Source of the DNA: an uncultured Alphaproteobacteria bacterium
GTDB taxonomy: Bacteria > Pseudomonadota > Alphaproteobacteria > HIMB59
Direction of reading: 5' to 3'
DNA: 63,999 bases
Assembly (NCBI GenBank): GCA_902601865.1
Contig: CACKOX010000003.1
Coordinates: 1 to 63,999 of the forward strand
Shown here in pieces: positions 40,720 to 59,659 of the stretch. Position numbers and translations under genes: made by a program. Below the pieces are notes generated by a model. The model was not told where the DNA came from and did no database searches. It saw only the letters and a list, made by a program, of their open reading frames with translations. How positions within the stretch are numbered: the stretch's first letter is position 1; every line of letters starts with the position of its first letter.

Positions 40720-40987
40720 AGACATCTCCGCTACAGCCATACCCAGTTTCAAAAATACCGCTCGGTTGATAAAAACCACACAACATAATCCATCTATATA
40801 TAAAGACTATTCCCGGAACAATGATAATTGCATTAATAAGAAAAAGAGCCACTGAAATCACAACCCTCATTGCAAGGTTTGTACTCATGTATTGTTTATA
40901 AAAGATACGAATTATTAAGCCTGTAGTTACTGCTGAAAGTAATAAAAATGGGGCGTCTAAGTGTGTAACTAAAAATTCATAATACAT
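40682..40987 (-). CDS. Small membrane protein (101 aa)
   Basis: The frame overlaps the 3' end of the transaminase by 38 nt and encodes a hydrophobic 101-aa protein with about two or three membrane segments (PFLLLSAVTTGLIIRIF, VVISVALFLINAIIIVPGIVFIY). It occupies a 260-bp gap with no other candidate. No family is recognised. A chance ORF is possible, but its hydrophobic layout supports it. Confidence 0.45.
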   Translation of the reverse strand: MYYEFLVTHLDAPFLLLSAVTTGLIIRIFYKQYMSTNLAMRVVISVALFLINAIIIVPGIVFIYRWIMLCGFYQPSGIFETGYGCSGDVFSLRVPRLFLLS

Positions 40988-41026
40988 CGCTTTAAATTAA
41001 AGCAATAATACAGTAAGCCTTTTAAA

Positions 41027-41671
41027 ATGCAAAAATACATATCAGAGTTTATAGGAACATTTATTTTATTAGTATCCATCGTAGGTTCTGGAATTGCAGG
41101 TCAACAATATACAAATGATCAAATGGTTATTTTGGTTAGTCATGCTGTTGTCATAGGTCTAACACTTATTTTTATAATTGGAATATTTGCTAATTTTTCT
41201 GGAGCACATTTTAATCCTATTGTTTCAATTTTGTTTTTCTTACAAAAAGAGCTAAGCAAAAAAGATCTATTTATATTCATTTCAATACAAATTACTGCAG
41301 CTATACTAGGAACAATTTTTGCAAATTATATTTTTGGTTTAAGCATTGTAGAAATCTCCTCAAATATTAGAAGTGGAACAAATATTTATATTTCAGAGGT
41401 TTTTGCTTCCTTTGGACTACTGATGGTTATTTTGCTATCGAAAGTAGGTGGTAAAAATATTGTTGCTTTTAATGTTGGTATTTACATCACAGCTGCAATA
41501 ATTTTTACATCCTCAGCTAGTTTCGCAAATCCTGCCGTATCGATTGCTAGAATTTTTACTGAGTCATTTGCAGGGATTAATCCCTCAACCGTAATATTTT
41601 TTATTGGCTCCCAAGTAATAGGTATGTTTGGGGCATACTTTTTATATAACCGCCTGTTTAAAACTAAATAA
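41027..41671 (+). CDS. Aquaporin-family (MIP) channel
   Basis: The 214-aa protein has six membrane segments and two half-helix loops: the first with the variant motif SGAHFNPIVSI (residues about 60-70) and the second with FANPAVSIAR (about 167-176). The selectivity Arg follows the second NPA. The first NPA is changed to NPI, seen in some bacterial and plant-type channels. Substrates may include water, glycerol or small neutral solutes. It lies 101 bp upstream of katG. Confidence 0.85.
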   Translation: MQKYISEFIGTFILLVSIVGSGIAGQQYTNDQMVILVSHAVVIGLTLIFIIGIFANFSGAHFNPIVSILFFLQKELSKKDLFIFISIQITAAILGTIFANYIFGLSIVEISSNIRSGTNIYISEVFASFGLLMVILLSKVGGKNIVAFNVGIYITAAIIFTSSASFANPAVSIARIFTESFAGINPSTVIFFIGSQVIGMFGAYFLYNRLFKTK

Positions 41672-41763
41672 TATCAAGCTTTTTTTAATTATTAACAGAG
41701 ACAATTCGTTATGTTGACTTACTAACAGGTTAACTTTTAATGATATTAAATTTATTTAAGTAG

Positions 41764-43926
<2,163 letters not shown>

Positions 43927-43929
43927 TTA

Positions 43930-44593
43930 ATGTTCAATTATGGTAATATCCAGCTCAAGGTTTGTGGTATTACAGATCAAAAATCGTTAGAGGTAATACA
44001 AAAGTATTCAGTCAGAACAGTGGGCCTTGTAAGTAATTACTTATATGGCCCCAATACACTATCTACTGAAGAAATTCATAACCTTACAATTGCTTCCTAC
44101 AATTTAAAATTAAATCCAATTCTATTGATTGGCAATATTCATATGCCAAAAATAATCGACATTATAAAACAAGTAGAGATAAAGGAAGTATGTGTATCTA
44201 ATCAATACAAGATTGAGGATATCGAATTACTAAATAATTCAACAAATTCAAAAATATCAATTTCAATAAATTACGAAAATTTTGATTATAATTTTTTTGA
44301 GCAAATCAAAAATAATGTTAGTAGTTTTTATTATGATCTTAATATTTACAGAAAAGATGTAATTGAGAAAAAAATCTCTAATGGAGTGTGAGAGTCAAAT
44401 TAATCAACTTAAGAGTTTTGCAAAGCCTTTATATCTTGGTGGAGGTATTAATATTAGTAATGTCAAAGAGGCAATTAAAACTATATCTCCACACGGTATT
44501 GATATATCGACAGGGTTAAAAAAATCAAACAGCGTAGATGAAGAAAAGCTTAAAAAAATTCTTGATAATCTTGGGTTTGACGAGATTTCTTAA
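43930..44593 (+). pseudogene. TrpF-like protein with frame interruption at A7
   Basis: Two frames (43930-44391 and continuing to 44593) join if one A is removed from the A7 run at 44368-44374. The N terminus QLKVCGITDQKSLE has the phosphoribosylanthranilate isomerase signature with its catalytic Cys; the C terminus has PLYLGGGINISNVKEAI and HGIDISTGLK, like the TrpF phosphate-binding end. The GGTG loop and the region around the usual catalytic Asp are poor, so it is a degenerate TrpF relative even without the frameshift. The join is about 220 aa, normal for TrpF. It lies 3 nt after katG and overlaps folK at the convergent end. Decay, sequencing error or slippage are all possible. Confidence 0.65.
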
Positions 44594-45077
44594 CGATAAA
44601 CCTCTCCTCTAAATTATTTAAAAGGCTTTTATAAGAGTAATGGGTTTTTAAATCTATGAAATCTGGGTTTAAATCTAGGATAGGTTGTATTACAAAATCT
44701 CTTAAATGAGAGGATGTATGAGGAATAGTTATTAGGTGGTTTTTGATTTTCAAGTTTTCAAATTGAATAAGATCGAGATCTATTTTTCTTGGCCCATTAG
44801 TTACAATTTTATTTTTTTTAATTTGTTTTTCCACAAAACACATTTTTATAAATAATTCGTTGAAGTATAGATTTGTAGTAAATAAAAAGGCAGCATTGTG
44901 AAAATATTTTTGGTTAGTTATCCCAAAAGGTTTCGTAAAATAGACTCTGCTAACCTTTTCGACATGTCCGAATTTATTCATTAGCTTTAATGCTAAATTA
45001 AAATTACTTTTCCAGTTGCCAATATTTGATCCAATAGCGATATATGATTTATATCGATACGCTGACTTTTTTTGCAT
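44550..45077 (-). CDS. folK: 2-amino-4-hydroxy-6-hydroxymethyldihydropteridine pyrophosphokinase
   Basis: FolK transfers pyrophosphate from ATP to hydroxymethyl-dihydropterin. The first ATG (45075-45077) gives 175 aa; the frame could also begin at TTG 45098, but ATG is preferred. Motifs: SYIAIGSNIGN, VSRVYFTKPFG, FHNAAFLF, and the signature GPRKIDLDLIQF, then IPHTSSHLRDFVIQPILDLNP. It overlaps folB by 29 nt in the same direction and is the last gene of the pab/fol operon. Confidence 0.92.
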   Translation of the reverse strand: MQKKSAYRYKSYIAIGSNIGNWKSNFNLALKLMNKFGHVEKVSRVYFTKPFGITNQKYFHNAAFLFTTNLYFNELFIKMCFVEKQIKKNKIVTNGPRKIDLDLIQFENLKIKNHLITIPHTSSHLRDFVIQPILDLNPDFIDLKTHYSYKSLLNNLEERFIVKKSRQTQDYQEFF

Positions 45078-45396
45078 TATATTTTTTGGCAATCTCAATT
45101 TTATTTATTTCCAACTTTTCTATTTTAATTGGAAATTGATTGTCCAATTGTTTTTTTAATTCTGTAATTAATTTTTCCAGTGTTTTGTATTGAGATGCTG
45201 AAACAAATGTTACTATTTCTTTTTTAATATCAGAATAACTTGTAACATTTTCAATATTGTCAAGATCTTGATTGTGATCAAGATCTAATTGGCATTTAAT
45301 ACTAATTAATATTGTTTGTGGTTTTAACCTTTCTTCATCAAACACTCCAATGATTGTGTCGACCTTTAAGTCCTCTATCTCTATAAAAAAATTCAT
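45049..45396 (-). CDS. folB: Dihydroneopterin aldolase
   Basis: The 115-aa protein fits FolB, which cleaves dihydroneopterin to hydroxymethyl-dihydropterin and glycolaldehyde. FFIEIEDLKVDTIIGVFDEER, NVTSYSDIKKEIVTFV and KTLEKLITELKKQL correspond to the family (tyrosine and glutamate of the active site in SYSDIK and LEKL). It overlaps folP by 4 nt and folK by 29 nt, showing tight operon packing. Confidence 0.87.
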   Translation of the reverse strand: MNFFIEIEDLKVDTIIGVFDEERLKPQTILISIKCQLDLDHNQDLDNIENVTSYSDIKKEIVTFVSASQYKTLEKLITELKKQLDNQFPIKIEKLEINKIEIAKKYNAKKVSVSI

Positions 45397-46208
45397 TTAT
45401 TCAAAGCTTTCAAAACTTTTATCATTTGATTTGTCTCTTGGACATCATGAATTCGAAACGTATTGACATTTTGTTGTAAGGCATGAGTAATAGAAGCTAA
45501 AGATCCTCCTATTCTTTGATCGGCGTTTGAAGGATCAATGAAGTTTATCCAACTTTTTCGTGATGAACCTAAAAGTATTTGTAGATTTTTGTGACTATAT
45601 TTTGATAGGGATCGCATTAATTGTAAGTTTTGGTTTAATGTTTTGCCAAAACCTATTCCTGGATCAAACCATACTTTTTTAAGATTAAATTTCATTTTTT
45701 TTAGTATTTTCAGTCTTTTTTCAATAAATTTATCAAACTCTTTTACCATATTAGCTCTTGGATTTAGTTTTTTTTGCATCTCTTTTGGTGTTCCTCTTTT
45801 GTGCATTAAGAATAATCCAGCATTGTACTTTTTTGTAAGTTTGAACAACTCCTCTGAACCACCATTTATATCATTAATAATATGCACTCCTTTTTTAAGG
45901 GCATATTCTTGAGTCTCAGGTTTATAAGAGTCTAATGAAACAAGATATTTCTTATAATTTAAATACGGTAGAATTTTTGAAAGCCTAAGTATTTCTTCTT
46001 TGTATGTAATTGGTTCGCTATTTGGTCTAGTGCTCTCTGCTCCAATATCTATAATTTGTGCTCCATCTTTAACCATTGAGTTAATATGATTAAGTGCAGA
46101 AGTACGAGAAAAGGTTTTGCCCCCATCACTAAAGGAATCAGGGGTAAAATTACAAATACCCACTAATAATGGTTTTTTTAGATTAAATAAATTTTTATTG
46201 AATTTCAT
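45393..46208 (-). CDS. folP: Dihydropteroate synthase
   Basis: The 271-aa protein condenses hydroxymethyl-dihydropterin pyrophosphate with p-aminobenzoate. LVGICNFTPDSFSDGGK (residues 15-31) is the DHPS pyrophosphate loop, then IDIGAESTRPNS, the INDINGGS segment, WFDPGIGFGKTLNQNL and GSSRKSWIN. It overlaps folB (4 nt) and pabC (14 nt). Confidence 0.95.
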   Translation of the reverse strand: MKFNKNLFNLKKPLLVGICNFTPDSFSDGGKTFSRTSALNHINSMVKDGAQIIDIGAESTRPNSEPITYKEEILRLSKILPYLNYKKYLVSLDSYKPETQEYALKKGVHIINDINGGSEELFKLTKKYNAGLFLMHKRGTPKEMQKKLNPRANMVKEFDKFIEKRLKILKKMKFNLKKVWFDPGIGFGKTLNQNLQLMRSLSKYSHKNLQILLGSSRKSWINFIDPSNADQRIGGSLASITHALQQNVNTFRIHDVQETNQMIKVLKALNK

Positions 46209-46977
46209 AGTAATTATTTTTTATCATAGTTTCATAGTCTTTTTTTAATTTTTGAAAATATGTCGTAGATTTTCTTTTCCAAAAAATACTTTGAATACTT
46301 TTTATAGACGTAATACCTCTTCCAGAACCTATTGATAATATTTCACTATATTGGTTAAGCTCTTTTTCAAAAATTGTTTTTTTAATGAACTTAAATTTGG
46401 ATATTTTCTCTACAAGTTTCAAAGTGTTACCATAATAGTATCCTATTTTTGGAATATATACTTTTCCTTCTTTAATAAAAATTAAATTTGTTACTGCACC
46501 CTCTGTAATTTCACCATCTCTTGATAGTATAATTTCATTTTCAGAGTAATTTATCTCACTCATAAATTTTAATATTTTTTTGTAATATAAATTTTTATTT
46601 CTAAAGTCTTTTCTTTTATATTTTTTTATAAATCCAATTACACTGCTCTTTGTCGTTGTTCTTTTTCTAAGTGACATTGATAAAGTTGTTCCATTAGTAG
46701 CAATTCTTAGCAAATGGTTAAAAATCTTAATTTGCTTAATATCTTCTCCAATTAATTCTCTGATCATTTTTGGATTTAGTTTGGCATCAAATTTATAATC
46801 ACGGCATGTATTATTAAAAGTACTTAAATAGAGGTTTAAGCCTATAAATCTTGGTGTTTTTCCTATGATAGGTATAGACGTAAAAACACCCTTCTGACCC
46901 CAAAGTGGTTTGAATTTAGAGGATAAATAAGAGTTATTTTTTAAATTGAATGATTTTTCGAATAAATTGTTTGCCAT
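46195..46977 (-). CDS. pabC: Aminodeoxychorismate lyase-like class IV PLP enzyme
   Basis: The 260-aa protein is a class IV PLP enzyme: LLRIATNGTTLSMSLRK, then DGEITEGAVTNLIFIKEGKVYIP (about residues 155-177), with the Glu and Asn expected in this family, and SIGSGRGITSI. Its position between pabA and folP makes aminodeoxychorismate lyase (p-aminobenzoate formation) by far the best call. The pattern is diverged, as is common in small genomes. It overlaps pabA by 44 nt. Confidence 0.8.
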   Translation of the reverse strand: MANNLFEKSFNLKNNSYLSSKFKPLWGQKGVFTSIPIIGKTPRFIGLNLYLSTFNNTCRDYKFDAKLNPKMIRELIGEDIKQIKIFNHLLRIATNGTTLSMSLRKRTTTKSSVIGFIKKYKRKDFRNKNLYYKKILKFMSEINYSENEIILSRDGEITEGAVTNLIFIKEGKVYIPKIGYYYGNTLKLVEKISKFKFIKKTIFEKELNQYSEILSIGSGRGITSIKSIQSIFWKRKSTTYFQKLKKDYETMIKNNYYEIQ

Positions 46978-47500
46978 TTGGAGTTAAAAATGAGTCCGGG
47001 TGAAATTGTAAACCACAAATGTCATATTTATGGCTTTCCAAACACATTGCTACATTAGTTTCCTCACATCTCATTGTAATATGCATTGAAGAAGAATTAA
47101 ATGGCTCTTTTAGTTTCAAAGAATGGTATCTCCCTACTTGATATAAAGCATTATTAGGAAATCTTAAACTTTGAGAATTTGTTCGTATATACGTTTGATA
47201 ACCATGAAATATTTTTTCCTGTTTAGAAATAGTTCCCCCTTCTCCGTTAGCAATAAGTTGAAATCCAAGGCAGATACCAATAATTTTCTTCTTCGATTTA
47301 TAATTATTATAAATATCCAATGATATTGGATAATCTAAGGGCTTTCCAGGCCCTGGAGAAAAAATTATTACATCTGACTTTTTTACAGAATTTTCTTTTA
47401 CATCATAAAAATTTTTAACTTCAAGGTTGCCAAAACCAGATAGCAAATGCGCAAGATTATAAGTAAAGGAGTCTTCATGATCTATAAGTAATAAATTCAT
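46934..47500 (-). CDS. pabA: Aminodeoxychorismate synthase glutamine amidotransferase subunit
   Basis: The 188-aa class I amidotransferase has DHEDSFTYNLAHLL, FSPGPGKPLDYP, GICLGFQLIA with the catalytic Cys, and CGLQFHPDSFLTPNG, whose His and Asp substitute for the usual His-Glu (HPES). It delivers ammonia from glutamine to PabB. It could also serve anthranilate synthase (TrpG), as PabA/TrpG are often shared, but no trp genes are in view. It overlaps pabB by 4 nt and pabC by 44 nt. Confidence 0.85.
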   Translation of the reverse strand: MNLLLIDHEDSFTYNLAHLLSGFGNLEVKNFYDVKENSVKKSDVIIFSPGPGKPLDYPISLDIYNNYKSKKKIIGICLGFQLIANGEGGTISKQEKIFHGYQTYIRTNSQSLRFPNNALYQVGRYHSLKLKEPFNSSSMHITMRCEETNVAMCLESHKYDICGLQFHPDSFLTPNGKQFIRKIIQFKK

Positions 47501-48702
47501 TTTAATAAATCCAATAGTGATTTAGCTTTTAAATAATTTTCATGATACTCATTTTTAGCAGTGCTATCTAAGATTACTCCACTAGCTGCGAAGACTTCGT
47601 TATTTTTTTTAAAATTTAAAATAGACCTTATTATGATATTAAAGCTCATATCTTGTTTAGAGCGAAAGTAACCAAAAGAGCCAGTATAAATTCTCCTAGG
47701 CTCTTTTTCTTCTTTATTCAGTAATTTTAAGGTATTAATTTTGGGACAGCCGATAACTGAACCTCCAGGCATCATTGCCTTAATTATTGCTGATAGTCTT
47801 ACATTATCAAGAAGGGTTCCAGAAATCTCAGAGACATTATGATAAATATATTGGTATTTTTGTACAAATTTTAAATTTTGTATTTTGACAGAATTTGGTT
47901 TTGTAATACGACTTAGGTCATTTCTCTCTAAATCAACAATCATATTGTGCTCTTTATCCTCTTTTTGATTATTTTCAAAAAAACGCCTCGCCTCTTTTGT
48001 TGATTTAATTTTATCCCTACTCACAGTTCCTGCTATTGGTGATGTGACTATTTTCTTTCCTCTTACTTTAAATAAGTTTTCAGGAGAGCAGCTAATTATA
48101 TTAAAATCTTTTGTTCTTACACAAAAAGACTCAGGGCTTAGATTTTTTTTCATCAAGTCAAAAAATAAATTAACTATATCTAGGTCTTTTTTATTTGAAT
48201 ATTTTTGAGCAATTTTAATTTGATAGGTTTCACCTGCCCTTATATTTTTTTTAAATTTATTGAAGATTTTTTCATAGACTTGAACATTTGGACTTACAGT
48301 CACTTTGTAATGATTTAAATTATTATTTTTTTTTAAGACTTTCAGATCTTTCAATAATTCAGTTTTAGATTTTGTTAGGATTTTAATTTTTTTATCTAAA
48401 ATAATTTTAGTTTGAGGTCGAAAAAAAACACCCTCTGGAAAAGATGAACTATCTTTATTTACTTTTAAATTAATATTTTTACAGAGTAATTCGTATCCAA
48501 AGAAACCAATGTAACAATCGTATGGCTTATTTGATTTAAAGCGCTCTAATTTATTTAAAAATTTTTGTAAGTTGCCTAAATTTAAATCAACTTTTTCAAC
48601 AAAATCTGTAAATATTTCAAAATTATTATTATCTGAGTTTCTGTAAATTACTAAGTCTTTATCAGAATTAAGTAAAATATTTAGTATTTCAGAATTGTCC
48701 AT
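47497..48702 (-). CDS. pabB: Aminodeoxychorismate synthase component I
   Basis: The 401-aa chorismate-utilising protein has the C-terminal TrpE/PabB catalytic half: CSPENLFKVRGKKIVTSPIAGT (about residues 208-229), KEDKEHNMIVDLERNDLSRI, MMPGGSVIGCPKINTLKLL and GSFGYFRSKQDMSFNIIIRSI. The N-terminal domain is shorter than in TrpE, favouring PabB. It makes aminodeoxychorismate from chorismate with PabA, the first step of p-aminobenzoate synthesis, and starts the six-gene operon. Confidence 0.88.
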   Translation of the reverse strand: MDNSEILNILLNSDKDLVIYRNSDNNNFEIFTDFVEKVDLNLGNLQKFLNKLERFKSNKPYDCYIGFFGYELLCKNINLKVNKDSSSFPEGVFFRPQTKIILDKKIKILTKSKTELLKDLKVLKKNNNLNHYKVTVSPNVQVYEKIFNKFKKNIRAGETYQIKIAQKYSNKKDLDIVNLFFDLMKKNLSPESFCVRTKDFNIISCSPENLFKVRGKKIVTSPIAGTVSRDKIKSTKEARRFFENNQKEDKEHNMIVDLERNDLSRITKPNSVKIQNLKFVQKYQYIYHNVSEISGTLLDNVRLSAIIKAMMPGGSVIGCPKINTLKLLNKEEKEPRRIYTGSFGYFRSKQDMSFNIIIRSILNFKKNNEVFAASGVILDSTAKNEYHENYLKAKSLLDLLK

Positions 48703-48773
48703 GAACGAATTCTATTTATATAGACTATTTATTCAACAAATGCGATTGCTACAATTTTACTTTGAACACACAT

Positions 48774-48802
48774 TATAAAAGCACCCTAACCTTTGGGGTG
48801 CT
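48774..48802 (-). terminator. Terminator of the iron-binding protein gene
   Basis: AGCACCC (48780-48786) pairs with GGGTGCT (48796-48802), loop TAACCTTTG. Read on the minus strand, the stem is followed by TTTTAT (48779-48774), as expected of an intrinsic terminator 28 nt downstream of the Fe3+-binding protein gene. Confidence 0.65.
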
Positions 48803-48830
48803 GCGGATCTATTTGAAGCGACCAACCTAT

Positions 48831-49844
48831 TTAACCGTCAAAATTTATTTTATTTAAGATATCTAAAACGGCTTTTCTATTTGAGGCGATTTCTTGTAAA
48901 TCTATAGAGTCAAATTTTGCATTATTTGCTAGTGCTTGTACTCTTTCCGAAGCTTTGACATTGACGTTTACCGGAAACTCATTGTTATCATTTGCATATA
49001 TTTTTTGAGCTTCCTCATTCAATAAAAATTCTAAAAAGTCTATAGAGGCGTCATAATTTTTATTGTTGATAATAGCGATTCCTGAAATGTTTACATGACT
49101 GCCATAACTGTCTTGATTTGGAAAAATTGGGGACACTTTTTCAAGCCAGATAATTTGATTAGGATCATCCATCATTTTAAAATAATAGTAATGATTACCA
49201 ATACTGACATCACAAACACCAGCATAAATTGCTTTTACTTGATCCCTGTCATTTCCTTGCGGTTTTCTTGAGAGATTAGCTTTCAATTTAACAATATAAT
49301 CTTCGAACCATTCCACTCCATGATGGGCAATTAAAGCTGAAAATAATGAGATATTGTAAGGATGATAACCAGATCTAGTACAAACTCTGTCTTTGTATTT
49401 TGGGAGAATAAGATCTTCATAAGAAATTTTTTCTAATTGAAGATCATTGTGAGCATAGATTACTCTTGCTCGCATTGTTAAGCTTGTCCAATCATTAGTT
49501 TGTAGATTTGAAGGTACATTCTTTTGTAAAGGTATTTCTACATTTGCACCCGCCTCTGTTATATCGATTAATCTTGCTATATCAGAAGATAAAAAAATAT
49601 CTGCAACCGGTCTGTCTTTTTCAAGAATTGTTTTTTGAACTAATCCTTTTTTTGAAAAAATCCATTCTATTTTATTTCCAGTTTGTTCTTCGTATTGGTT
49701 AATTAAGGGCTCGATTAAAAAGGGCTGTCTTTCAGAATAGACTTTTATGGTTTCTGATGCATAAGCTTTTGTGAGAGCAATGTACATTGATGACAGACTT
49801 ATGAGTATAGAAACAGTTAAAAGTATTATTGATTTATTTTTCAC
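48831..49844 (-). CDS. Iron(III) ABC transporter substrate-binding protein
   Basis: The 337-aa protein is a FutA/FbpA-like periplasmic iron-binding protein with an N-terminal signal (residues 1-29). Typical segments are IKVYSERQPFLIEPLINQYEEQTG, KGLVQKTILEKDRPVADIFLSSDIARL, VSIGNHYYYFKM with the adjacent tyrosines that bind iron, and GSHVNISGIAIINNKNYDASIDFLEFLLNEEAQK. It delivers ferric iron to an inner-membrane permease. No permease or ATPase lies next to it, so the rest must be elsewhere. It is isolated, with its own terminator, and close to the Irr-type gene. Confidence 0.9.
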   Translation of the reverse strand: MKNKSIILLTVSILISLSSMYIALTKAYASETIKVYSERQPFLIEPLINQYEEQTGNKIEWIFSKKGLVQKTILEKDRPVADIFLSSDIARLIDITEAGANVEIPLQKNVPSNLQTNDWTSLTMRARVIYAHNDLQLEKISYEDLILPKYKDRVCTRSGYHPYNISLFSALIAHHGVEWFEDYIVKLKANLSRKPQGNDRDQVKAIYAGVCDVSIGNHYYYFKMMDDPNQIIWLEKVSPIFPNQDSYGSHVNISGIAIINNKNYDASIDFLEFLLNEEAQKIYANDNNEFPVNVNVKASERVQALANNAKFDSIDLQEIASNRKAVLDILNKINFDG

Positions 49845-49908
49845 AGAACTCTTTATAAAGGAGACAGTAATTATTGAAATGAATAAATTTTTAATAGCTT
49901 AATAACAA

Positions 49909-50928
49909 CTATTGTGGTGATTTTTTGTAGTATATTTCAGATTTATTTTTGTTAATTTTTTTAAATAGGAATACTTTTATGAAATACCTTTTTAAAAATT
50001 TAAAAGACTCGATGAATGGAGTTTGGTAAAGCTCTTTTAAAGTATGTTTTTTTTGGTCATCTTTGGTGCCTAAACCTAGTGTGAGGTTATCAGTATCTTC
50101 AGAATGGTGTAAGGATCCAAATATCCAATCCCAAATAGCAAGTGCTGCACCATAGTTTTTATTGTAGTGCTCTTTTGCTATTGAATGATGCAAGTGATGC
50201 TGTGCGGGTGAAATAAGAACGTACTCTAACCATTTCCAGTAACGAATACCAATATGAGAATGTCTTAGATTAGATCCAAAGACATTGAAAAAAAACACAA
50301 ATAAATTTGCACCAAGTATGGTGTATAAGTCAACACCACCACCAAATAAATAAACAAAAGTTGATATTGTTACGCCCTGAGCAAAAGCTGACCTTAGTGT
50401 AAATACTAAACCCTCCAGAGGATGGGTTCTAAAAACAGTCATAGGAGTAAGGTTTGTTGCTGAATGATGAACTTTATGTAATGCCCATAAAAATGGCCAA
50501 TTATGCATCCATCGATGAACAATATATTTCGAAAAATCATCTACTATAAAGTGAGTTAGAGTGAATAAACTGACAATTAAATATTTAGGAGAGGAGGCAA
50601 ACAGGCCCATTTCTATAAAATTTATTTCAAAAAAGAAAAAATATAACGCAGTTGCTATTGTTATCTGAGTAAGGAGATGTGGAGAAATTAATAACATTAT
50701 AATCTGATTGATGAAAAATACTTTATAGTCACTTGTTGCTGATTTTGAGAAAAAGACTTTTGGATTGAAGATAAATTTAATTGACTCTTTCAGTGATTTC
50801 TTTTTATGGAAAATGAGCCAAGCTACTGCAATTAAAATAGATAAAAATAAGTAAAGAATAAATACTCTTTTTTTTGGATTAGTAAATTGATCTATTGTAT
50901 TTTGAAATATATCAAAAAAAAATTCCAT
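49909..50928 (-). CDS. Fatty acid hydroxylase/sterol desaturase-family protein
   Basis: The 339-aa membrane protein has the histidine motifs of the family: HRWMHNW (about 138-144), HKVHHSATNLTP (about 151-162) and HHLHHSIAKEHYNKNYG near 240. These hold the di-iron centre that hydroxylates lipids. The exact product is unknown (sterol, fatty acid or carotenoid-like). It is a lone gene between a hairpin and the iron-binding protein. Confidence 0.88.
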   Translation of the reverse strand: MEFFFDIFQNTIDQFTNPKKRVFILYLFLSILIAVAWLIFHKKKSLKESIKFIFNPKVFFSKSATSDYKVFFINQIIMLLISPHLLTQITIATALYFFFFEINFIEMGLFASSPKYLIVSLFTLTHFIVDDFSKYIVHRWMHNWPFLWALHKVHHSATNLTPMTVFRTHPLEGLVFTLRSAFAQGVTISTFVYLFGGGVDLYTILGANLFVFFFNVFGSNLRHSHIGIRYWKWLEYVLISPAQHHLHHSIAKEHYNKNYGAALAIWDWIFGSLHHSEDTDNLTLGLGTKDDQKKHTLKELYQTPFIESFKFLKRYFIKVFLFKKINKNKSEIYYKKSPQ

Positions 50929-50948
50929 GAATTATATTAATATCATAA

Positions 50949-50972
50949 CATGGCCTTCCGAAGAAGGCCATG
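50949..50972 (-). terminator. Hairpin downstream of the imelysin-like gene
   Basis: CATGGCCTT (50949-50957) pairs perfectly with AAGGCCATG (50964-50972) around loop CCGAAG, about 47 nt downstream of the imelysin-like stop codon on the minus strand. The sequence after it (TTATGATATT) has only a weak T-run, so termination is probable but not textbook. Confidence 0.5.
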
Positions 50973-51019
50973 CAATCGTCTCTTTATGTGTCAGTGTAGG
51001 AGAAGAGACAAACTTTTAT

Positions 51020-52411
51020 TTAGTCGTTTTCTGCAGACTCAGATGTACCAATTTTAGATGCAAGATCTGCCATATCTGAGAGCATGTCGTTACCTCTTGC
51101 TTCTACACCAAATTGATCAATCATAAGTTTTTGTATTTTTAACATATGAAGTTTTGCATCATTCATGGAATAAACTTTATCCATTACGTAATTGCCATTT
51201 ACATCAATGCCTACAATTTGAGTTTCATCTAAAAGCATTGGGCCAAAACCAACCATTCGATTAAGCTTTGCTCCTGTTTCTCCAATATTGTTTTTTCCAA
51301 CTTGAAGAGCCATTGAGAAGCCTTTTAATTCTCCCCAATACTTCATGTACTTATCAAATTCTTTAGCTAAATCAGCATTGCTTACATCCTCAAGAGCAAC
51401 AAGTGACTTATAAGTTGATCCAGCGTATTTAAATACAGACTCTGCAATAACTTTTTCCCAATTAGAGGAAATATCGTCTACATATGCCATTAGTCTTGCT
51501 CTTGACATATCAGAGAGTTTTTCTCCGTTTGCTGATGTAATTAATTTTCTACCATCAAGGAAAGCTCTAGTAATATCTTCTAAATAAGTTGTTTTACCAC
51601 CTTTATCAAAACTAGAGGCATAATACGCATGAGCAAAAACATACTCCGATTTAAGATCAACAACACCATCTCCGTTAAAATCTGCAGATGCTAAATCTTT
51701 TTTCTTTGCTACATTGTAGTTTTGTTCAGCAGATAACAACAAAGAATGTGCTGCAGCACCCCAATATCCAAATGCCTCATCCCAACTATGCTCTTTACCT
51801 GTGTAGCAAGCTCCATCTTTGTATGGCTTATCATTAGGCTTTGTGTCTGCCTCCATTTTTTCATCAAGATAATTGTCAACAGCTTGGTTGTAGAACACTG
51901 CCCCCATAATAAACTTTGAGAGAAGCTGCTGGTAATTTAATCCAACTGAGACATCTTTTGGATTGCTCTCAGCTTTACTCATCCAAAAATCAATTACTTC
52001 TGGTCCTGTCATGTTGTTGGGCCAAGATGTAATAGTTCCTTTATAAGTTTTACCTGAAAGATTCTTACCAGAAGAAATATCATTTAATAATGTTTGTTTA
52101 ATAGGAAAACCGTCCTTAGAAGCCGGCGCCCAAATTTGTTTATTCTTATCTGAGCCACTATAGTAAGAATTCATTTCAGAATAATCACCTTTTGTGGAAA
52201 GATGTTTAAGACTATCGTGTTGTACGTGTCTTGCTATCTGGCCGCTGTAAGAAACAGTATTTGTGCAATCACCAGAGTAACCTTTTAGAGTTACTGGGAA
52301 TGGGCCATATACATCTTCACTATGTGCTCCAGCATTGGCAAGACCAGTCAAGCCAAAGCTAAGACATGTTATGGATGCCAAAAGTTTTGTTTTCAATTTA
52401 GATTTTTTCAT
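51020..52411 (-). CDS. Imelysin-like (DUF4856) exported protein
   Basis: The 463-aa protein has a signal peptide (KLLASITCLSFGLTGLANAG), then DUF4856-like segments: LNYQQLLSKFIMGAVFYNQAVDNYL, HSWDEAFGYWGAAAHSL (about 217-233), and a Ca-binding-type loop DFNGDGVVDLKSE (about 252-264, EF-hand/dockerin-like). Imelysin-related proteins are iron-regulated and bind cell-surface metal or heme by unproven means. It lies downstream of the Irr-type gene on the same strand and near an iron-binding protein, so an iron/heme role is supported by context. Confidence 0.8.
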   Translation of the reverse strand: MKKSKLKTKLLASITCLSFGLTGLANAGAHSEDVYGPFPVTLKGYSGDCTNTVSYSGQIARHVQHDSLKHLSTKGDYSEMNSYYSGSDKNKQIWAPASKDGFPIKQTLLNDISSGKNLSGKTYKGTITSWPNNMTGPEVIDFWMSKAESNPKDVSVGLNYQQLLSKFIMGAVFYNQAVDNYLDEKMEADTKPNDKPYKDGACYTGKEHSWDEAFGYWGAAAHSLLLSAEQNYNVAKKKDLASADFNGDGVVDLKSEYVFAHAYYASSFDKGGKTTYLEDITRAFLDGRKLITSANGEKLSDMSRARLMAYVDDISSNWEKVIAESVFKYAGSTYKSLVALEDVSNADLAKEFDKYMKYWGELKGFSMALQVGKNNIGETGAKLNRMVGFGPMLLDETQIVGIDVNGNYVMDKVYSMNDAKLHMLKIQKLMIDQFGVEARGNDMLSDMADLASKIGTSESAEND

Positions 52412-52518
52412 AGTGTTTGAGAAAATATTGAAAAAAAAATTAAAAAAAATAGAAAAAAAATAAGATATTGCTGCGTCTAAATAAGCAATGTTTACTGAAA
52501 CATATTACAAATAATGAA

Positions 52519-52939
52519 TTACTTCTTTTTTTTGAGATTTATTACCAAAGAATATTCCTCAAGCAATGATAGGCAAGCTGGTATCGGCAAGTCTTTGTGA
52601 AGCTCTATGCAATCGTCGTAATCGTATATTTTATTCTCTTCTTGATGATAAACATGAATATGATTAGTTGTGTTAGTATCGTAGAATGATTGTTTATCAA
52701 CAACAATTTGCTTTAAATATCCTTTATCAACTAAAGTATTCAGATTTTCATATAGTGTTGTTAAAGAAAAAATAACTTCTGTTATCTTTCAAAGTTTCAT
52801 TCATTTGATTAATTGAAAAGTGTTTGTCTTTCCCATCAAAAATTGATTTTAGGAGAACCACTCTTTGTTTAGTTTGTCTCCATCCGCACTTCTCTAGAAC
52901 AACATCAATCTCTTTTTTACTAGCTTCTGATAAATTCAT
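52519..52939 (-). pseudogene. irr: Fur-family Irr-type regulator with frame interruption
   Basis: The frame from the ATG at 52937-52939 encodes NLSEASKKEIDVVLEKCGWR and QTKQRVVLLKSIFDG (helix-turn-helix N terminus), then stops; another frame gives TEVIFSLTTLYENLNTLVDK (DNA recognition helix), QSFYDTNTTNHIHVYHQEEN and a C terminus ending in LKKKK with TAA at 52519-52521. Skipping one base in the TTGAAAGATAAC region (about 52784-52795) joins the frames into about 139 aa, the length of Irr. The YDTNTTNHIHVY segment resembles the Irr heme/metal-binding FDTN-HHH region. Irr controls iron and heme genes in alphaproteobacteria. A broken copy next to imelysin-like and iron-binding genes is notable. 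Confidence 0.7.
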
Positions 52940-53057
52940 TGTCCTAAAATAGGCTAAAAATGGTTATTATTCAATAGCATCTGGCATATTATATTAAGAC
53001 AAAACAGCACTAGCTAGAATGTAATATATTCCATTAAACGATGAGTTAATAGGTAAA

Positions 53058-53228
53058 TCAGGTTTTATTTAAGTTAGCTGATAAACTAGGCAAATTCTCA
53101 TTAACCTTTTTTTGAGAATTTAATTGATACATAACGTTCACTCTTTCAATAAATGATATGGGATAATACTTCTCTTCGACGATTCTTTTTATTTTGTGAT
53201 TACAAACCTTGTTTTTAGTTTTTCTCAT
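53058..53228 (-). CDS. Possible small basic protein (56 aa)
   Basis: The 392-bp gap between irr and znuA (52940-53331) holds one plausible frame: ATG at 53226-53228, stop at 53058-53060, giving a 56-aa lysine- and asparagine-rich product (MRKTKNKVCNHKIKRIVEEK at its start). Its start codon lies inside a strong hairpin (53221-53256). No family is recognised. Apart from this and the hairpin, the gap is plain AT-rich sequence; a weaker repeat (AAGTTTC at 53285-53291 and GAAACTT at 53312-53318) lies just downstream of znuA. Confidence 0.3.
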   Translation of the reverse strand: MRKTKNKVCNHKIKRIVEEKYYPISFIERVNVMYQLNSQKKVNENLPSLSANLNKT

Positions 53229-53256
53229 AAGGCATATAAAATGCCTATATGAGAAA
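53221..53256. promoter_or_regulatory. 15-bp hairpin in the irr-znuA gap
   Basis: TTTCTCATAAGGCAT (53221-53235) pairs with ATGCCT-TATGAGAAA (53241-53246 and 53248-53256), with one bulged A and loop ATAAA. On the plus strand a T10 run follows about 14 nt later. It may be a terminator, a regulatory leader hairpin covering the start of the 56-aa frame, or part of a small RNA. Confidence 0.4.
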
Positions 53257-53331
53257 ATTGTAAATTAGTTTTTTTTTTGACTTTAAGTTTCTTAGATTAT
53301 TGAAATTATCTGAAACTTATTTCAAAATTCC

Positions 53332-54594
53332 TTAGTGACACTCTTTAATAGAATTTGCAATTCCATTAATTAGTTCAACATACATTGTAGGTCCTGCATC
53401 TATGAAAGCTCCTAAAGGATCCATAACACCAGTAGAGATATTCATATCGTTGCCGAGTGTCTCAATTATCTTAGGATTATATTGAGGCTCAGAGAAGATA
53501 CACTTAATACCCTTGTCACTAATTAAATCTTGTATATCAGCTATTTGTTTAGCACCAGGTAGGACGTCAGGATTTAAAGTTAACGCTCCTGCAGATTTCA
53601 CACCAAATCTTGTTTCAAAATATTGGTAGGCATCATGGAATACAATGTAACTAATGTCTTTAGATAATTCTGTTTCAACATTATTAATCAGATTATCTAG
53701 TTCCAAAGTAGCTCCTGCTGCATTTACTGAATATTGCCTTTGACCCTCTGGATCAATTTTTATTAATTCATCACGGATAATTTTAACCATCTCTTTAGCG
53801 TTCTCTGGGTCCAACCATATGTGAGCATCAAACTCTCCGTGATTGTGACCGTCGTGATGTCCTGCATGATCGTCATGTTCGTCGTCATGGCCATCATGAT
53901 CATCGTGATCGTCATGATCATCATCTTTGTGACCATCGTGATCGTCATGATCATCGTGTCCTTCATGTTCGTCGTCATGGCCATCATGATCATCGTGATC
54001 GTCATGATCATCATCTTTGTGACCATCGTGATCGTCATGATCATCGTGTCCTTCATGTTCGTCGTCATGGCCATCATGATCATCGTGATCGTCATGATCA
54101 TCATCTTTGTGACCATCGTGATCGTCATGATCATCGTGTCCTTCATGTTCGTCGTCATGGCCATCATGATCATCGTGATCGTCATGATCATCGTGATCAT
54201 CGTGATCGTCATGATCATCAAAAATGTTTTCTTCTCTAAATTTTAGTTTTTCAATGGACTCGGAGTCCATAAATGCAATTTTTTTTGTGTCTTTTGCTAG
54301 AGAGTTTAAAGGTTTTTCCATAAATGCCTCCAAATCCTCTCCAATCCAAAAAACAATATCTGCCTCTTCAATCATTTTTGCATGTGATGGTTTAAAGACA
54401 AAAGTGTGAGGATTATTTGTGCCCTCAATAATTAATTGTGGTTCTCCTCTTGTTTCCATAATTCTAGATATTAATGAATGTAATGGCTTTATTGTGGTTA
54501 CTACTTTGATGTCTGTGCTTACGTCTGCGTGAACAGAAAAACTACTAAATAAAATAGAAAGTCCAAAAATAATTGATTTTTGAAAGAAATTCAT
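53332..54594 (-). CDS. znuA: Zinc ABC transporter substrate-binding protein with long His/Asp repeat
   Basis: ZnuA binds zinc in the periplasm and hands it to ZnuB. The 420-aa protein has a signal peptide (residues 1-23), IKVVTTIKPLHSLISRIM, the first ligand in NNPHTFVFKPSHAKMI, the second in EFDAHIWLDPENAKEM, VFHDAYQYFETRFG and IFSEPQYNPKIIETL. Between about residues 125 and 255 is a stretch of Asp-His-Gly-Glu-Lys repeats of 30 residues, about 130 residues in all, far longer than the His loop of usual ZnuA. It likely buffers zinc. The gene is divergent from znuC across a 76-bp gap with a palindromic operator. Confidence 0.93.
   Translation of the reverse strand: MNFFQKSIIFGLSILFSSFSVHADVSTDIKVVTTIKPLHSLISRIMETRGEPQLIIEGTNNPHTFVFKPSHAKMIEEADIVFWIGEDLEAFMEKPLNSLAKDTKKIAFMDSESIEKLKFREENIFDDHDDHDDHDDHDDHDDHDGHDDEHEGHDDHDDHDGHKDDDHDDHDDHDGHDDEHEGHDDHDDHDGHKDDDHDDHDDHDGHDDEHEGHDDHDDHDGHKDDDHDDHDDHDGHDDEHDDHAGHHDGHNHGEFDAHIWLDPENAKEMVKIIRDELIKIDPEGQRQYSVNAAGATLELDNLINNVETELSKDISYIVFHDAYQYFETRFGVKSAGALTLNPDVLPGAKQIADIQDLISDKGIKCIFSEPQYNPKIIETLGNDMNISTGVMDPLGAFIDAGPTMYVELINGIANSIKECH
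53881..54192. repeat. 90-bp tandem repeat inside znuA
   Basis: Copies of a 90-nt unit beginning GTCGTCATGG start at 53881, 53971, 54061 and 54151; three are complete and look identical, the fourth matches for about 42 nt. Each encodes a 30-residue His/Asp/Gly/Glu/Lys unit of ZnuA. The 90-nt length keeps the frame. Near-identical copies point to recent duplication and possible copy-number variation between strains. Confidence 0.95.
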
Positions 54595-54615
54595 GTCTAT
54601 TACCTACCTCTAAGT

Positions 54616-54645
54616 GTTATATTATTACATACGTAATATTATAAC
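54616..54645. promoter_or_regulatory. Probable Zur operator between znuA and znuC
   Basis: A 30-bp imperfect palindrome centred on ATAC: GTTATATTATTAC (54616-54628) and GTAATATTATAAC (54633-54645); 12 of 13 arm positions match. It resembles bacterial Zur boxes with the GTTATA...TATAAC core, and it stands in the 76-bp gap between divergent znuA and znuC. Zur, encoded at 56.25 kb, is the expected repressor. Confidence 0.7.
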
Positions 54646-54670
54646 CATAAAAATATGTCAATATTAAAAA

Positions 54671-55421
54671 ATGAATAATTATTTAGTTGAATTAAATAAC
54701 TGTGGAGTTTTAAGAAACCATAAATGGTTAGTTAGAGGTGTCTCATTAAAAGTTTCCCAAGGAGAAATTGTAACATTGATTGGACCCAACGGATCTGGCA
54801 AATCTACAACTGCAAAAATGTCATTGGATATTTTAAAACCTGACGAAGGCACAAATAATATCAAAAAAGGAATGCGAATTTCATATGTGCCACAAAAAAT
54901 TTCAATTGATTGGTCTCTCCCATTAAGGGCAATAGATTTTGTTAATTTAGTAAAAAAAACATAAGACCAGTGAGATTAATGATGCCCTCAGTATCACTGG
55001 AATCAAACATCTTATTTATGAAGATGTTAGAAATTTGTCTGGAGGAGAATTTCAAAGATTACTCATGGCTCGCGCAATAGCTAAAGAACCTCATTTTCTG
55101 GTTTTAGATGAACCTGTTCAAGGTGTCGACTATCCTGGAGAAATTGCTTTATATAAGACAATCCAAGAAATTGTAAAAAAAATAAACTGCGGAATATTAC
55201 TTATTTCACATAACTTACATGTGGTGATGTCACAAACTGATTACGTTATTTGTCTTAATGGGCATGTTTGTTGTTCTGGAGCTCCCAACACTGTCATAAA
55301 GGAGCCAGAATATATTAAATTATTTGGAAAGAATATTGATCCCACCTTAGCTTTTTATCAACATGACCACGATCACGAACACTTACCTGATGGGAGCATA
55401 GATGACTCGAAGAAAGACTAA
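54671..55421 (+). pseudogene. znuC: Zinc ABC transporter ATPase ZnuC, frame interrupted at A8
   Basis: The first frame carries VSLKVSQGEIVTLIGPNGSG and the Walker A KST, up to FVNLVKKT, where it stops just after an A8 run at 54952-54959. Removing one A continues as VKKHKTSEINDALSITGIKH through the signature NLSGGEFQRLLMARAI, Walker B FLVLDEPVQGVD and the His loop LISHNLHVVM, to a C-terminal His/Asp-rich DHDHEHLPDG tail. The joined product is 249 aa, normal for ZnuC. Since ZnuA and ZnuB are intact, a broken ATPase would disable uptake. An assembly error or slippage at A8 is likely. Confidence 0.85.
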
Positions 55422-55423
55422 TA

Positions 55424-56251
55424 ATGTTTGATGATTTTATTGTTAGAGCTTTTGCAGCAGGAATTGGTTTAGCATTTATTACAGGTCCACTGGGATGCTT
55501 TATAGTTTGGAGAAGGCTATCTTATTTTGGTGATACCATTGCTCACTCTGCCTTATTAGGAGTTGTTATTGCTTATGCTTTGGATTTTAACTTAATCATA
55601 GCCGTATTTGTTGTTTCTTGCTTACTTGCCCTGTCTTTACTTTTTTTACAAAGGAGAACCAATCTTCCAGATGATGCTTTATTGGGTCTGTTAGCTCACT
55701 CTGTGCTAGCGATAGGATTAGTTCTTTTAGGTATACTTTCATTCATAAGAATTGATCTTATGGGTTTGCTTTTTGGAGATATTCTCTCTGTCAATGTCAC
55801 CGACTTATTATTTGTCTGGATTGGAGGAGGTATCGTTTTAATAGTATTGATATTAATTTGGAGACCTCTTTTTGCTGGAACAGTTAACTTAGAATTAGCC
55901 AAAGCAGAAGGATTAAATCCAGATTTAGCTAATGCAATCTTTACTTTGCTAATAGCTAGTGTCATTGCAATATCTATAAAAATTGTTGGGATATTATTAA
56001 TCACTGGTCTTCTAATCATCCCTGCATCTGCATCAAGAAACTTGTCCTCCACACCAATTCAAATGGCAATCATATCCTCTATTATAGGTGTCGCTTCAGT
56101 AGTTCTTGGTATTCAAACCTCGATGATTTGGAACACCCCTACTGGTCCTACTATTTTAACAATCACTTTGGGTGTCTTTATATTAACTCTATTGCCACTG
56201 AAAAAATTGCTAATCTCGAAAAAAAAAATAGAATTGTCAGATAAAAGATGA
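55424..56251 (+). CDS. znuB: Zinc ABC transporter permease ZnuB
   Basis: The 275-aa membrane protein has about eight hydrophobic segments and ZnuB motifs: GPLGCFIVWRRLSYFGDTIAHSALLG (residues about 21-46), DDALLGLLAHSVLAIGLV and GLLIIPASASRNLS. It conducts zinc into the cytosol using ZnuC energy. It starts 2 nt after znuC and shares an ATGA overlap with the zur gene, so the three form one transcript. Confidence 0.93.
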   Translation: MFDDFIVRAFAAGIGLAFITGPLGCFIVWRRLSYFGDTIAHSALLGVVIAYALDFNLIIAVFVVSCLLALSLLFLQRRTNLPDDALLGLLAHSVLAIGLVLLGILSFIRIDLMGLLFGDILSVNVTDLLFVWIGGGIVLIVLILIWRPLFAGTVNLELAKAEGLNPDLANAIFTLLIASVIAISIKIVGILLITGLLIIPASASRNLSSTPIQMAIISSIIGVASVVLGIQTSMIWNTPTGPTILTITLGVFILTLLPLKKLLISKKKIELSDKR

Positions 56252-56662
56252 GTTCAACACATACACACTCTAAAAAAAAGTCAAAGTTTAACCAAAAATC
56301 AAAGAATTGTTCTTGATCTCTTACAAAACAGCGGAGAGCCTTTAAAGGCATACTTTATATTAGATAGTCTTAAGAAAGAGGGCTTAAATTCACCTCTTCA
56401 AGTTTACAGAGCTTTAGATAAACTGGTTGAATTAGGAAAAATTCACAAAATTGAGAGTATTAACTCCTTTATAATATGTAATAACTCTAATTGTGCGAGT
56501 AACACCGCTTTTACCATTTGCGAGAGATGTGGAAAGGTAAAAGAGATTAAAAATAAATATTTAACGGATGGTGTCAGCGATCTGGTTAAGGATAATCAAT
56601 TAGAAATTACAAGATATAACCTTGAATTTTATGTTTTGTGTAAGTCTTGCAAAATAAATTAA
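56248..56662 (+). pseudogene. zur: Zur (Fur-family zinc regulator), frame interrupted at A8
   Basis: The ATG at 56248 overlaps znuB as ATGA and its frame begins MSSTHTHSKKK, reading a run A8 at 56272-56279 and then stopping after 22 codons. Removing one A continues as SQSLTKNQRIVLDLLQNSGE, PLKAYFILDSLKKEGLNSPL, then QVYRALDKLVELGKIHKI (recognition helix) and CERCGKVKEI with CKSC near the end, giving 137 aa. The two CxxC pairs and Fur fold point to Zur. It ends at 56662. With znuC damaged the same way, this locus is either miscalled or uses slippage. Confidence 0.8.
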
Positions 56663-56711
56663 TCAAACACTAATCTCCAAATAAATCCCTATTTTATTGC
56701 ATTTTTGACTA

Positions 56712-56739
56712 TTGACATAAATAAAGACCTATATATATT
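56712..56739 (+). promoter_or_regulatory. Sigma-70-type promoter of rplU
   Basis: TTGACA (56712-56717) and TATATT (56734-56739) lie 16 bp apart, a near-consensus -35/-10 pair, ending 12 nt before the rplU start at 56752. The expected start site gives a very short leader. Confidence 0.5.
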
Positions 56740-56751
56740 GACCGACTTATT

Positions 56752-57276
56752 ATGTACGCAGTTCTTAAATCAGTTGGTAAGCAATTCAAAGTATCTCCTG
56801 GAGATGTTTTAAAGATTGATAAAATAGAGGGCAACGTTGGTGATACCATATCTTTTAAAGATATTGTGGCAGTTGGAAATGGCGATAAGTTTGAACTTGG
56901 ATCTCCAGCTGTAAAAGGTGCGGAAGTATCAGCAAAATTATTGTACCAAACTAGAGACGATAAGATCAGAGTTTTTAGAAAGAATAGAAGAAAACACTTT
57001 CAAAGAACTAAAGGTCATCGTCAATATATCTCTATATTAAAGGTCATGGCAATCAAGTCCGCCATAGGAGAAGAAAGCTTTAAAGAACCAGTTAAGAAAG
57101 CTGTGCCAAAAGCAGAAACTCCAAAAAAAGTTGAAAAAAAGGCAGAAGCTCCAAAAAAAACTGAAGTAAAAGCTACAGAAACAAAAAAAGTTGAAGCTAA
57201 AGCTGAAAAACCTAAAAAGGTTGAGGCTACAGAAAAAAAGACTGTGAAAAAAGATACAACTGAGGTAAAAAAGTAA
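56752..57276 (+). CDS. rplU: 50S ribosomal protein L21 with C-terminal Lys/Ala/Glu-rich tail
   Basis: The first 103 residues are typical L21 ([40 protein letters not shown]), the 23S rRNA-binding protein. The next 70 residues are a repetitive basic/acidic tail ([20 protein letters not shown] and similar) ending TTEVKK, absent from the E. coli protein. Such tails occur in some alphaproteobacteria. rpmA follows after 4 nt, the universal L21-L27 pairing. Confidence 0.94.
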
Positions 57277-57280
57277 AACT

Positions 57281-57526
57281 ATGGCAACAAAAAAAGCAGG
57301 TGGAAGTTCCAAAAACGGAAGAGACTCGGCTGGTAGAAGGCTTGGAGTTAAAAAGTTTGGTGGAGAGCACGTAATTCCTGGAAATATTATTGTTCGTCAG
57401 CGTGGTACTAAATTTTACCCGGGCGATAATGTAGGGATTGGAAAAGACCACACTCTTTTCTCCTTAGTCGAAGGCAAAGTTCTGTTCAAAAAATCACGTA
57501 ACAGACAGTTTGTTTGCGTTAACTAA
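57281..57526 (+). CDS. rpmA: 50S ribosomal protein L27
   Basis: The 81-aa protein is L27: [20 protein letters not shown] is the standard N terminus near the peptidyl-transferase centre, then [20 protein letters not shown] and [16 protein letters not shown]. It lies between rplU and obgE. No cleavable N-terminal extension is present. Confidence 0.97.
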
Positions 57527-57558
57527 TCCCACTAAAAAAAACTTCAAATTAAACTGTT

Positions 57559-58548
57559 ATGGCATTTATTGATAAAGCAAAAATATATATTAAATCAGGA
57601 AATGGTGGCCATGGGGCTCTAAGTTTTCGTCGAGAAAAATTTGTAGAGTATGGAGGACCTAATGGTGGTAACGGTGGTAAAGGTGGAGATGTAATTTTTC
57701 GAGGAAACAAAGGGATTAACACCTTACAACGATATCGTTTTAACCAGCATCATAATGCTCAAAATGGTACGGGTGGCGCTGGTCAATTAAAAACAGGTGC
57801 AAGTGGAAAAGATCTCATCTTAGATGTTCCTTGTGGCACAGAAATTTATACTGAAGATATGAGTATTAAAATTCATGAAATTTTAAAAGACGATGAAACT
57901 TATCATTTCTTAAGAGGTGGCCAGGGTGGAAAAGGTAACGCTCACTTCAAAAGCTCTACTAATAGAGCACCTCGTAAATTTCAACAAGGAGAAAAAGGAC
58001 AAGAGTCCACTATTCGATTAAAGCTAAAAATATTAGCTGATGTAGGTTTAGTAGGTATGCCAAATGCTGGTAAATCTTCCATTTTAAATTTTGTGACAAA
58101 TGCAAAATCAAAAGTTGCTGATTACGCGTTTACCACTCTTCATCCACATATCGGGATGGTTCAAAAAGAAGATTTGGAATTTGTATTAGCTGATATTCCG
58201 GGGCTAATAGAACATGCAAGTGATGGAAAAGGTCTTGGTCATGATTTTTTATCTCATGTGGAAAGATGTAAAATCTTAATTCATGTAGTAGATATCACTG
58301 AAGATAAACCTTTTCATAATTATAAAATCATTCGTCAAGAGCTTTTAAATTATGGTGCTAAAATAGAACAAAAAAAAGAGATTATTGCACTAAACAAGAT
58401 AGAAATTGCTGATAAGCAAAGGGTTGCAGAAATTCAAAAGGAATTTGAGTCATCTTTAAAGCAAGAGGTAAAACTAATCTCTGCTGCTACGGGATATCAA
58501 CTCGATCAATTAACAAATTTATGTTTAGAATACTTACAAGATGAATAA
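57559..58548 (+). CDS. obgE: Obg GTPase (CgtA)
   Basis: The 329-aa GTPase has the N-terminal glycine-rich Obg fold (YIKSGNGGHGALSFRREKFV, GGNGGKGGDV), the G1 GMPNAGKSSILN (residues 174-185), G3 DIPGLIEHA and G4 ALNKIE. It acts in 50S assembly and stringent-response control. It follows rpmA by 32 nt, overlaps proB by 8 nt and has the usual alphaproteobacterial neighbours. Confidence 0.95.
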   Translation: MAFIDKAKIYIKSGNGGHGALSFRREKFVEYGGPNGGNGGKGGDVIFRGNKGINTLQRYRFNQHHNAQNGTGGAGQLKTGASGKDLILDVPCGTEIYTEDMSIKIHEILKDDETYHFLRGGQGGKGNAHFKSSTNRAPRKFQQGEKGQESTIRLKLKILADVGLVGMPNAGKSSILNFVTNAKSKVADYAFTTLHPHIGMVQKEDLEFVLADIPGLIEHASDGKGLGHDFLSHVERCKILIHVVDITEDKPFHNYKIIRQELLNYGAKIEQKKEIIALNKIEIADKQRVAEIQKEFESSLKQEVKLISAATGYQLDQLTNLCLEYLQDE

Positions 58549-59659
58549 AAAATTCACAGAATTAGCCAAAAAATCAAAAGTTATTGTCATCAAAGTTGGC
58601 TCTAATATTTTAGTTAATGAAAAGCATGTGCTGAGAAAAAAATGGCTCACCTCCTTAATTGAGGATGTTCAGAAACTCCAAAAAAAAGGATCTAAAATTA
58701 TTATCGTCTCCTCTGGTGCCATCGCTCTGGGAAGAAATATTCTCTCCAAAAAAAAATTAACTAATTTACATGAAAAGCAAGCTGCTGCATCTATAGGTCA
58801 AATACAACTCTCTCAACAATGGCAAAAAGCTTTTGCTAAATTCAATATTCAAAGTTCACAGATATTAATCACAGCTGAAGATTTAAATGAAAGAAGAAAA
58901 TATCTCAACATACGAAATACAATTTACTCTTTAATGGATTTAAATGTTGTTCCAATTATTAATGAGAACGACACTACCTCAACAGAAGAAATTCGATTTG
59001 GTGACAATGATAAACTTTCAGCAATGATTGCGAATGCACTATCTGCTGAATTATTAATTTTATTATCTGATGTGAATGGGCTTTATACAGCCAATCCAAA
59101 AAAATCAACAGATGCTAAGTTAATTACATCTGTTGAAGAAGTTGATCAAGAAATAGAAAAATATATAGATAAAGATTTGAGTGAATTTGGTTCTGGTGGA
59201 ATGTTAGCAAAAGTAAATGCTGCTAAGCTTTGTATTCAGTCTGGATCCACAATGATAATATCAAATGGACTAGTCAATAATCCACTAGGTAACATTCATC
59301 CAACATCTTCAACATGGTTTCATCCTTCTAAAAATATTCTCACAAGTCGGCAGCAATGGATTTGGAATAGACCAATTCAAAAAGCAATTGTTCATATTGA
59401 TGAAGGCGCCTCAAAAGCACTGAAGAAGAATTCAAGTCTATTAGCAATCGGTGTGAAGTCTATTGATGGAAAGTTTTATCGTGGCGATACTGTTTCGATT
59501 CATTACAATAAAAAAGAATTAGCCAGAGGTATGATTAATTACGATTTTAAGGAAATGGATAAGATTAAAGGTAGAAAATCAAAAGAATTCAGCAAAATTC
59601 TTGGTTTTGTTCGTGAAGATGAGATTGTCCATAAAGATAACTTGGTGAATTCAAGATGA
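58541..59659 (+). CDS. proB: Glutamate 5-kinase
   Basis: The 372-aa protein phosphorylates glutamate, the first step of proline synthesis. N-terminal kinase features: VIVIKVGSNILV, VSSGAIALGRN, NENDTTSTEEIRFGDNDKLS and LLSDVNGLYTANP; the C-terminal PUA domain spans about residues 278-350 (KAIVHIDEGASKAL). It overlaps obgE (8 nt) and proA (4 nt). Confidence 0.95.
   Translation: MNKKFTELAKKSKVIVIKVGSNILVNEKHVLRKKWLTSLIEDVQKLQKKGSKIIIVSSGAIALGRNILSKKKLTNLHEKQAAASIGQIQLSQQWQKAFAKFNIQSSQILITAEDLNERRKYLNIRNTIYSLMDLNVVPIINENDTTSTEEIRFGDNDKLSAMIANALSAELLILLSDVNGLYTANPKKSTDAKLITSVEEVDQEIEKYIDKDLSEFGSGGMLAKVNAAKLCIQSGSTMIISNGLVNNPLGNIHPTSSTWFHPSKNILTSRQQWIWNRPIQKAIVHIDEGASKALKKNSSLLAIGVKSIDGKFYRGDTVSIHYNKKELARGMINYDFKEMDKIKGRKSKEFSKILGFVREDEIVHKDNLVNSR

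Follow-up and report, generated by a model that had tools for sequence, protein, structure and literature searches.

The window, by which we mean the whole stretch of DNA analysed here (63,999 nucleotides), is the entire contig 3 of an AT-rich genome (G000; 47 contigs totalling 1,221,772 bases, completeness 85%) and carries a zinc uptake locus. In this locus the gene znuA (53332..54594, minus strand; PF01297) has an intact ORF, as does znuB, which encodes the ABC-3 permease (55424..56251, plus strand; PF00950). The frame is broken within a run of eight A (54952-54959) in znuC, encoding the ABC ATPase (54671..55421, plus strand; PF00005, ABC_tran, on an intact copy from a relative), and again within a run of eight A (56272-56279) in the Fur family gene zur (56248..56662, plus strand; PF01475, found also on the copy of the relative locus L034). 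A further Fur-family gene of the Irr type (52519..52939, minus strand; PF01475) is interrupted at 52767-52772, where six A on the plus strand correspond to six T in the gene, and a TrpF-like gene (43930..44593, plus strand; PF00697, PRAI, on the intact copy of G012) is interrupted at a run of seven A (44368-44374). A 90-bp tandem repeat inside znuA (53873-54219; 3.9 copies, 97% match) encodes a His/Asp-rich stretch. We asked whether the genome has the locus twice and rejected this, since it is present at one place only.

The frame breaks in the four genes had been noticed in a first-pass annotation of this DNA and are borne out, in all four cases, by six-frame reading and by the sequence; the accompanying claim that each gene is one base too long was also correct, with one additional base relative to the relatives at four of four sites. 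Three of the lesions had been placed at poly-A runs, which is right for those three, but the Irr-type gene is likewise broken at a run (A6/T6), so that runs are involved at all four sites. The additional plus-strand base is an A each time, in a region that contains 46 A-runs vs. 28 T-runs of at least six. Runs of A or T are plentiful in this genome, and 89 of at least seven lie well inside ORFs of at least 100 aa in the window as a whole; among the longer ones, nine A at 3551-3559 and nine T at 24490-24498 are present inside ORFs 2577-4004 and 23391-24671 and keep their frames, as had been said of them. Three of the four broken genes are metal-related and lie within about 4 kb. The probability that four uniformly placed events fall within 11.9 kb is 0.022 for 64 kb and 0.0007 for 210 kb, values that are biased since the window was picked because of these very events.

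Relatives were found with ZnuB as the query. The named ones are mostly entered as "uncultured Alphaproteobacteria" with AG-number names, which we take to denote single-cell genomes from one centre; some are entered as "Pelagibacteraceae" and one as "alpha proteobacterium HIMB59", and the titles of many of the AG-named records contain the word MAG. The genome under study is presumably a single-cell assembly as well, like these AG-named relatives. The workflow behind the AG-series single-cell genomes has been described (PMC6122165). No relative of ZnuB was seen among the viral contigs searched. For comparison along the contig we used stretches from seven relative genomes (G028, G017, G012, G032, G003, G031 and G060, the last being the genome of L034, record AG-390-I07), whose aligned pieces above 1 kb share 85-99% identity with the window, or 69-92% in the case of G017 (G060 being represented at that stage by L034 and L092 only).

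All seven relatives lack one base at every lesion site, the gap of G017 at 44368 being placed one base earlier, and the run in the TrpF-like gene is A6 in all ten relatives caught by a local pattern, vs. A7 here. The genes themselves are full length almost throughout the relatives, in sets that overlap in genomes and whose counts are therefore not independent: the TrpF-like gene in 19 of 19, the Fur-like gene in 22 of 22, znuC in all 35 that were scored out of 40 loci (two cut or partial, three without a hit at the threshold) and zur in 30 out of the 34 that were scored from 40 loci (four partial, two without a hit). Three of the four zur exceptions contain an ORF of 139 aa and the fourth, L064 (record CM1_5m.P70; L064:5850), is frame-shifted by an extra A of its own at an A8 near the gene start, where L065 has A7. 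This lone shifted zur concerns a different A8, and a frame break conserved among relatives was not found at any of the four sites. Nor is the run site of znuC itself conserved, as 10 relatives matched by pattern carry A7 and 16 just two A. The lesions are private to one assembly, as expected of technical error, and the full-length genes in close relatives that the first-pass annotation had named as evidence against its proposal are present.

Substitutions private to this genome point in the same direction. Five are located after the lesions (zur four, TrpF-like gene one), and all of them are synonymous in the frame of the relatives; no such substitution follows the lesion in znuC or in the Fur-like gene. 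The intact genes of the stretch carry 20 synonymous and 11 non-synonymous private substitutions, and intact genes elsewhere in the window carry 397 and 122, plus one stop. Selection is therefore not visibly relaxed after the lesions, although the number is small and very recent real mutations would look alike. Private substitutions are few in the stretch, and their density shows no local excess there (between 1.25 and 5.25 per kb across the bins of 40001-60000, with a number of comparators that varies by bin), a point against technical error.

We counted private indels consisting of one letter or of two identical letters in bases covered by at least two relatives. The genome under study has nine of them in 210,428 compared bases, which are part of its 1.22 Mb, and only the four lesions lie in runs of at least six; the others are at 25130 and 25133 (run length one, two relatives) and, in noncoding DNA at runs of three at most, at L090 7627, L090 7630 and L101 2681. 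Outside the stretch, about 198 kb of the same genome showed no such indel at runs of at least six, so within the 210 kb compared such lesions are not spread across the genome. Among the relatives, G028 has none at runs of at least six in 175,206 bases, G032 none in 40,707 and G031 none in 27,460, and G012 (148,154 bases) has one ambiguous loss of a base at T7, with other gaps nearby and close to a gene start, which was not scored as a broken gene. A like event is seen in G060, where 194,007 bases hold two coding gains of one base at runs of eight. Genes broken at runs of at least six thus amount to 4 of 193 genes with at least two relatives in the genome under study, 2 of 180 in G060, 0 of 161 in G028 and 0 of 139 in G012. 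The two private events of G060 (A8/T8; L114:15821 and L117:2767) break genes of 583 aa and 859 aa. Two further sites are weak candidates: in G028 an A5 within the initial 8% of a gene, compared with three relatives, and in G031 a T8, compared with one.

Ten genes of the genome under study were scored as broken. They comprise the four with lesions, a group of five whose difference is confined to the first 8% of the gene, and one at 41423. The five were rejected as lesions, as they reflect start choice or no frameshift, and four of them have one or two relatives; the sixth was traced to a private extra A in G003. Rows of broken genes in the other genomes number five in G060, seven in G028, three in G012, three in G032 and six in G031, many of those other than the G060 events and the weak candidates falling at gene starts. 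Within the znu region, 289,257 bases from 38 other assemblies yielded no private coding run indel and only two rows, which share a single noncoding site of L050, and we therefore rejected the idea that this region is hot for indels across the group.

Taken from the sequence comparison, the finding is probably an artefact and not a real feature: the four extra bases are best explained as one-base errors at A/T runs, absent from the living lineage, that would have arisen during whole-genome amplification, sequencing or assembly and been concentrated in a segment of some 12 kb within the final third of the contig. Coverage may have been thin in this stretch, and thin coverage, or else one early amplicon with slipped copies, could produce the clustering. 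Of the two readings offered in the first-pass annotation, clustered assembly errors is the better supported one; that the lineage uses or tolerates slippage at such runs is not supported, the longer runs being shared by none of the seven relatives and no other run of at least six in the 210 kb compared of this genome having a private indel.

The size of the expected error can be judged from benchmark cultures processed by the AG-series workflow, for which an average of 3.0 indels per 100 kb is given (PMC8443664, PMC6122165, PMC9771814). This rate predicts 1.9 indels in 64 kb, where four are seen (P 0.13), and 6.3 in 210 kb, and the lesions resemble known single-cell assembly errors in being private one-base indels with an unchanged substitution pattern and a 64-kb count that fits. 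They differ in being far denser over 12 kb, as 0.36 are expected in 11.9 kb (P of four or more, 0.0005), and the benchmark, in the parts of these papers drawn on here, is not split by homopolymer. The assemblies of the relatives, moreover, look cleaner than the benchmark, with the two rows in the 289 kb of the znu region vs. about 8.7 expected, and so does the genome under study outside the stretch, where zero private indels at runs of at least six compare with about 5.9 expected of any kind. An average workflow rate therefore fails to explain the cluster, and a locally bad stretch must be assumed; because the assemblies of the relatives carry fewer indels than the benchmark, our confidence in error is slightly lower, and that in real mutation slightly higher, than it would otherwise be. 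That three of the four affected genes deal with metals and are close neighbours also weighs against error. Our literature search on homopolymer indels in amplified single-cell genomes returned no direct source. Frame-broken genes at A/T runs in AT-rich drafts call for reads or relatives before pseudogenes, gene loss or recoding are inferred; here zinc uptake would be wrongly called lost.

The alternative that survives best is real mutation by replication slippage, very recent and confined to one cell; the group being without MutS, its A/T runs would often gain or lose bases, most such cells would leave few descendants, and a single-cell genome would sample them before selection removes them. 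We searched this genome and 20 relatives for two Pfam domains, and neither MutS_I (PF01624) nor MutS_V (PF00488) turned up in any of the 21, the one under study and all eight that are at least 90% complete included, with a control recovered in 11 of 14. The absence of MutS from these 21 genomes makes real slippage in one cell a serious second reading, and the subclades Ic and IIa.A of SAR11 have likewise been reported to lack mutS and mutL (PMC12374537). All four lesions, and the two of G060, are one-base gains at A/T runs, as in mismatch-repair-less bacteria, and technical indels are few in the assemblies of the relatives.

Slippage mutations without mismatch repair are expected genome-wide and with both signs. 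Here, in contrast, the lesions are clustered, with four in 12 kb vs. none at runs of at least six in the other 198 kb or so compared, and only insertions are seen (6 of 6 including those of G060; two-sided p 0.03). A missing MutS should also show in other assemblies, yet none of the 38 has such an indel in a coding run of the 289 kb compared from the znu region. We therefore regard real mutation as unlikely, though deserving of attention. With slightly greater reserve still we entertain its broader form, that in a free-living, streamlined, MutS-less group single cells might carry real one-base A-run expansions on which selection has not yet acted, here sufficient in one cell to break zinc uptake together with the genes that regulate it, and that single-cell genomes might capture slippage ahead of selection. 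Were the lesions real, plankton lacking MutS would offer, through their single-cell genomes, a way to measure slippage before selection.

Recoding, in which the lineage would carry the longer runs and rely on slippage, transcriptional or ribosomal, to yield complete proteins as in Buchnera and Blochmannia, is not supported and appears very improbable. At A-heptamers, ribosomes slip in the opposite direction, to -1. The case for recoding would be the AT-rich genome with its many A/T runs, the listing of A-heptamers among ribosomal slippery sites (PMC3711429) and the precedent of Blochmannia, whose frameshifts have been proposed to be corrected, with about 30% full-length transcripts in earlier work cited in that paper (PMC3017870). 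The lesions share with those of Blochmannia and Buchnera the AT-rich background, the breaking of the frame inside A/T runs and otherwise constrained genes. Some of the latter, however, are conserved between populations or species and involve long tracts (11 A in visC; PMC3017870, in the portion cited), whereas here they are private, in runs of six to eight. The lengths stated for transcriptional slippage are n > 7 for An and n > 8 for Tn (PMC3711429), limits for which A7 and T6 are too short, so that the four sites do not all qualify. An extra base would, in addition, require a deletion-type slip, and homopolymers in transcripts of E. coli and Buchnera showed mostly insertions, with no restored frame detected in the results cited here (PMC5574713). 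Recoding is thus unlikely because the longer runs are not conserved, two of them are too short and transcripts mostly gain bases.

Equally hard to sustain is phase variation, by which zur, znuC and the Fur-like gene would act through their A-runs as switches of zinc uptake in this MutS-less group. In its favour, the lesions hit three metal genes inside about 4 kb, and the zur of L064 has its extra A near the start. Against it, the idea leaves the TrpF-like gene unexplained, all relatives scored show a single state for both znuC and the Fur-like gene, and L064 differs from L065 by one base at two more A-runs in the same 5.1-kb alignment, differences that could be sequencing error.

Between the TrpF-like gene and the Fur-family gene, the stretch from about 49747 to 52492, which contains a DUF4856 protein, can be aligned in G060, G003 and G012 but not in G028, G032, G031 or G017.
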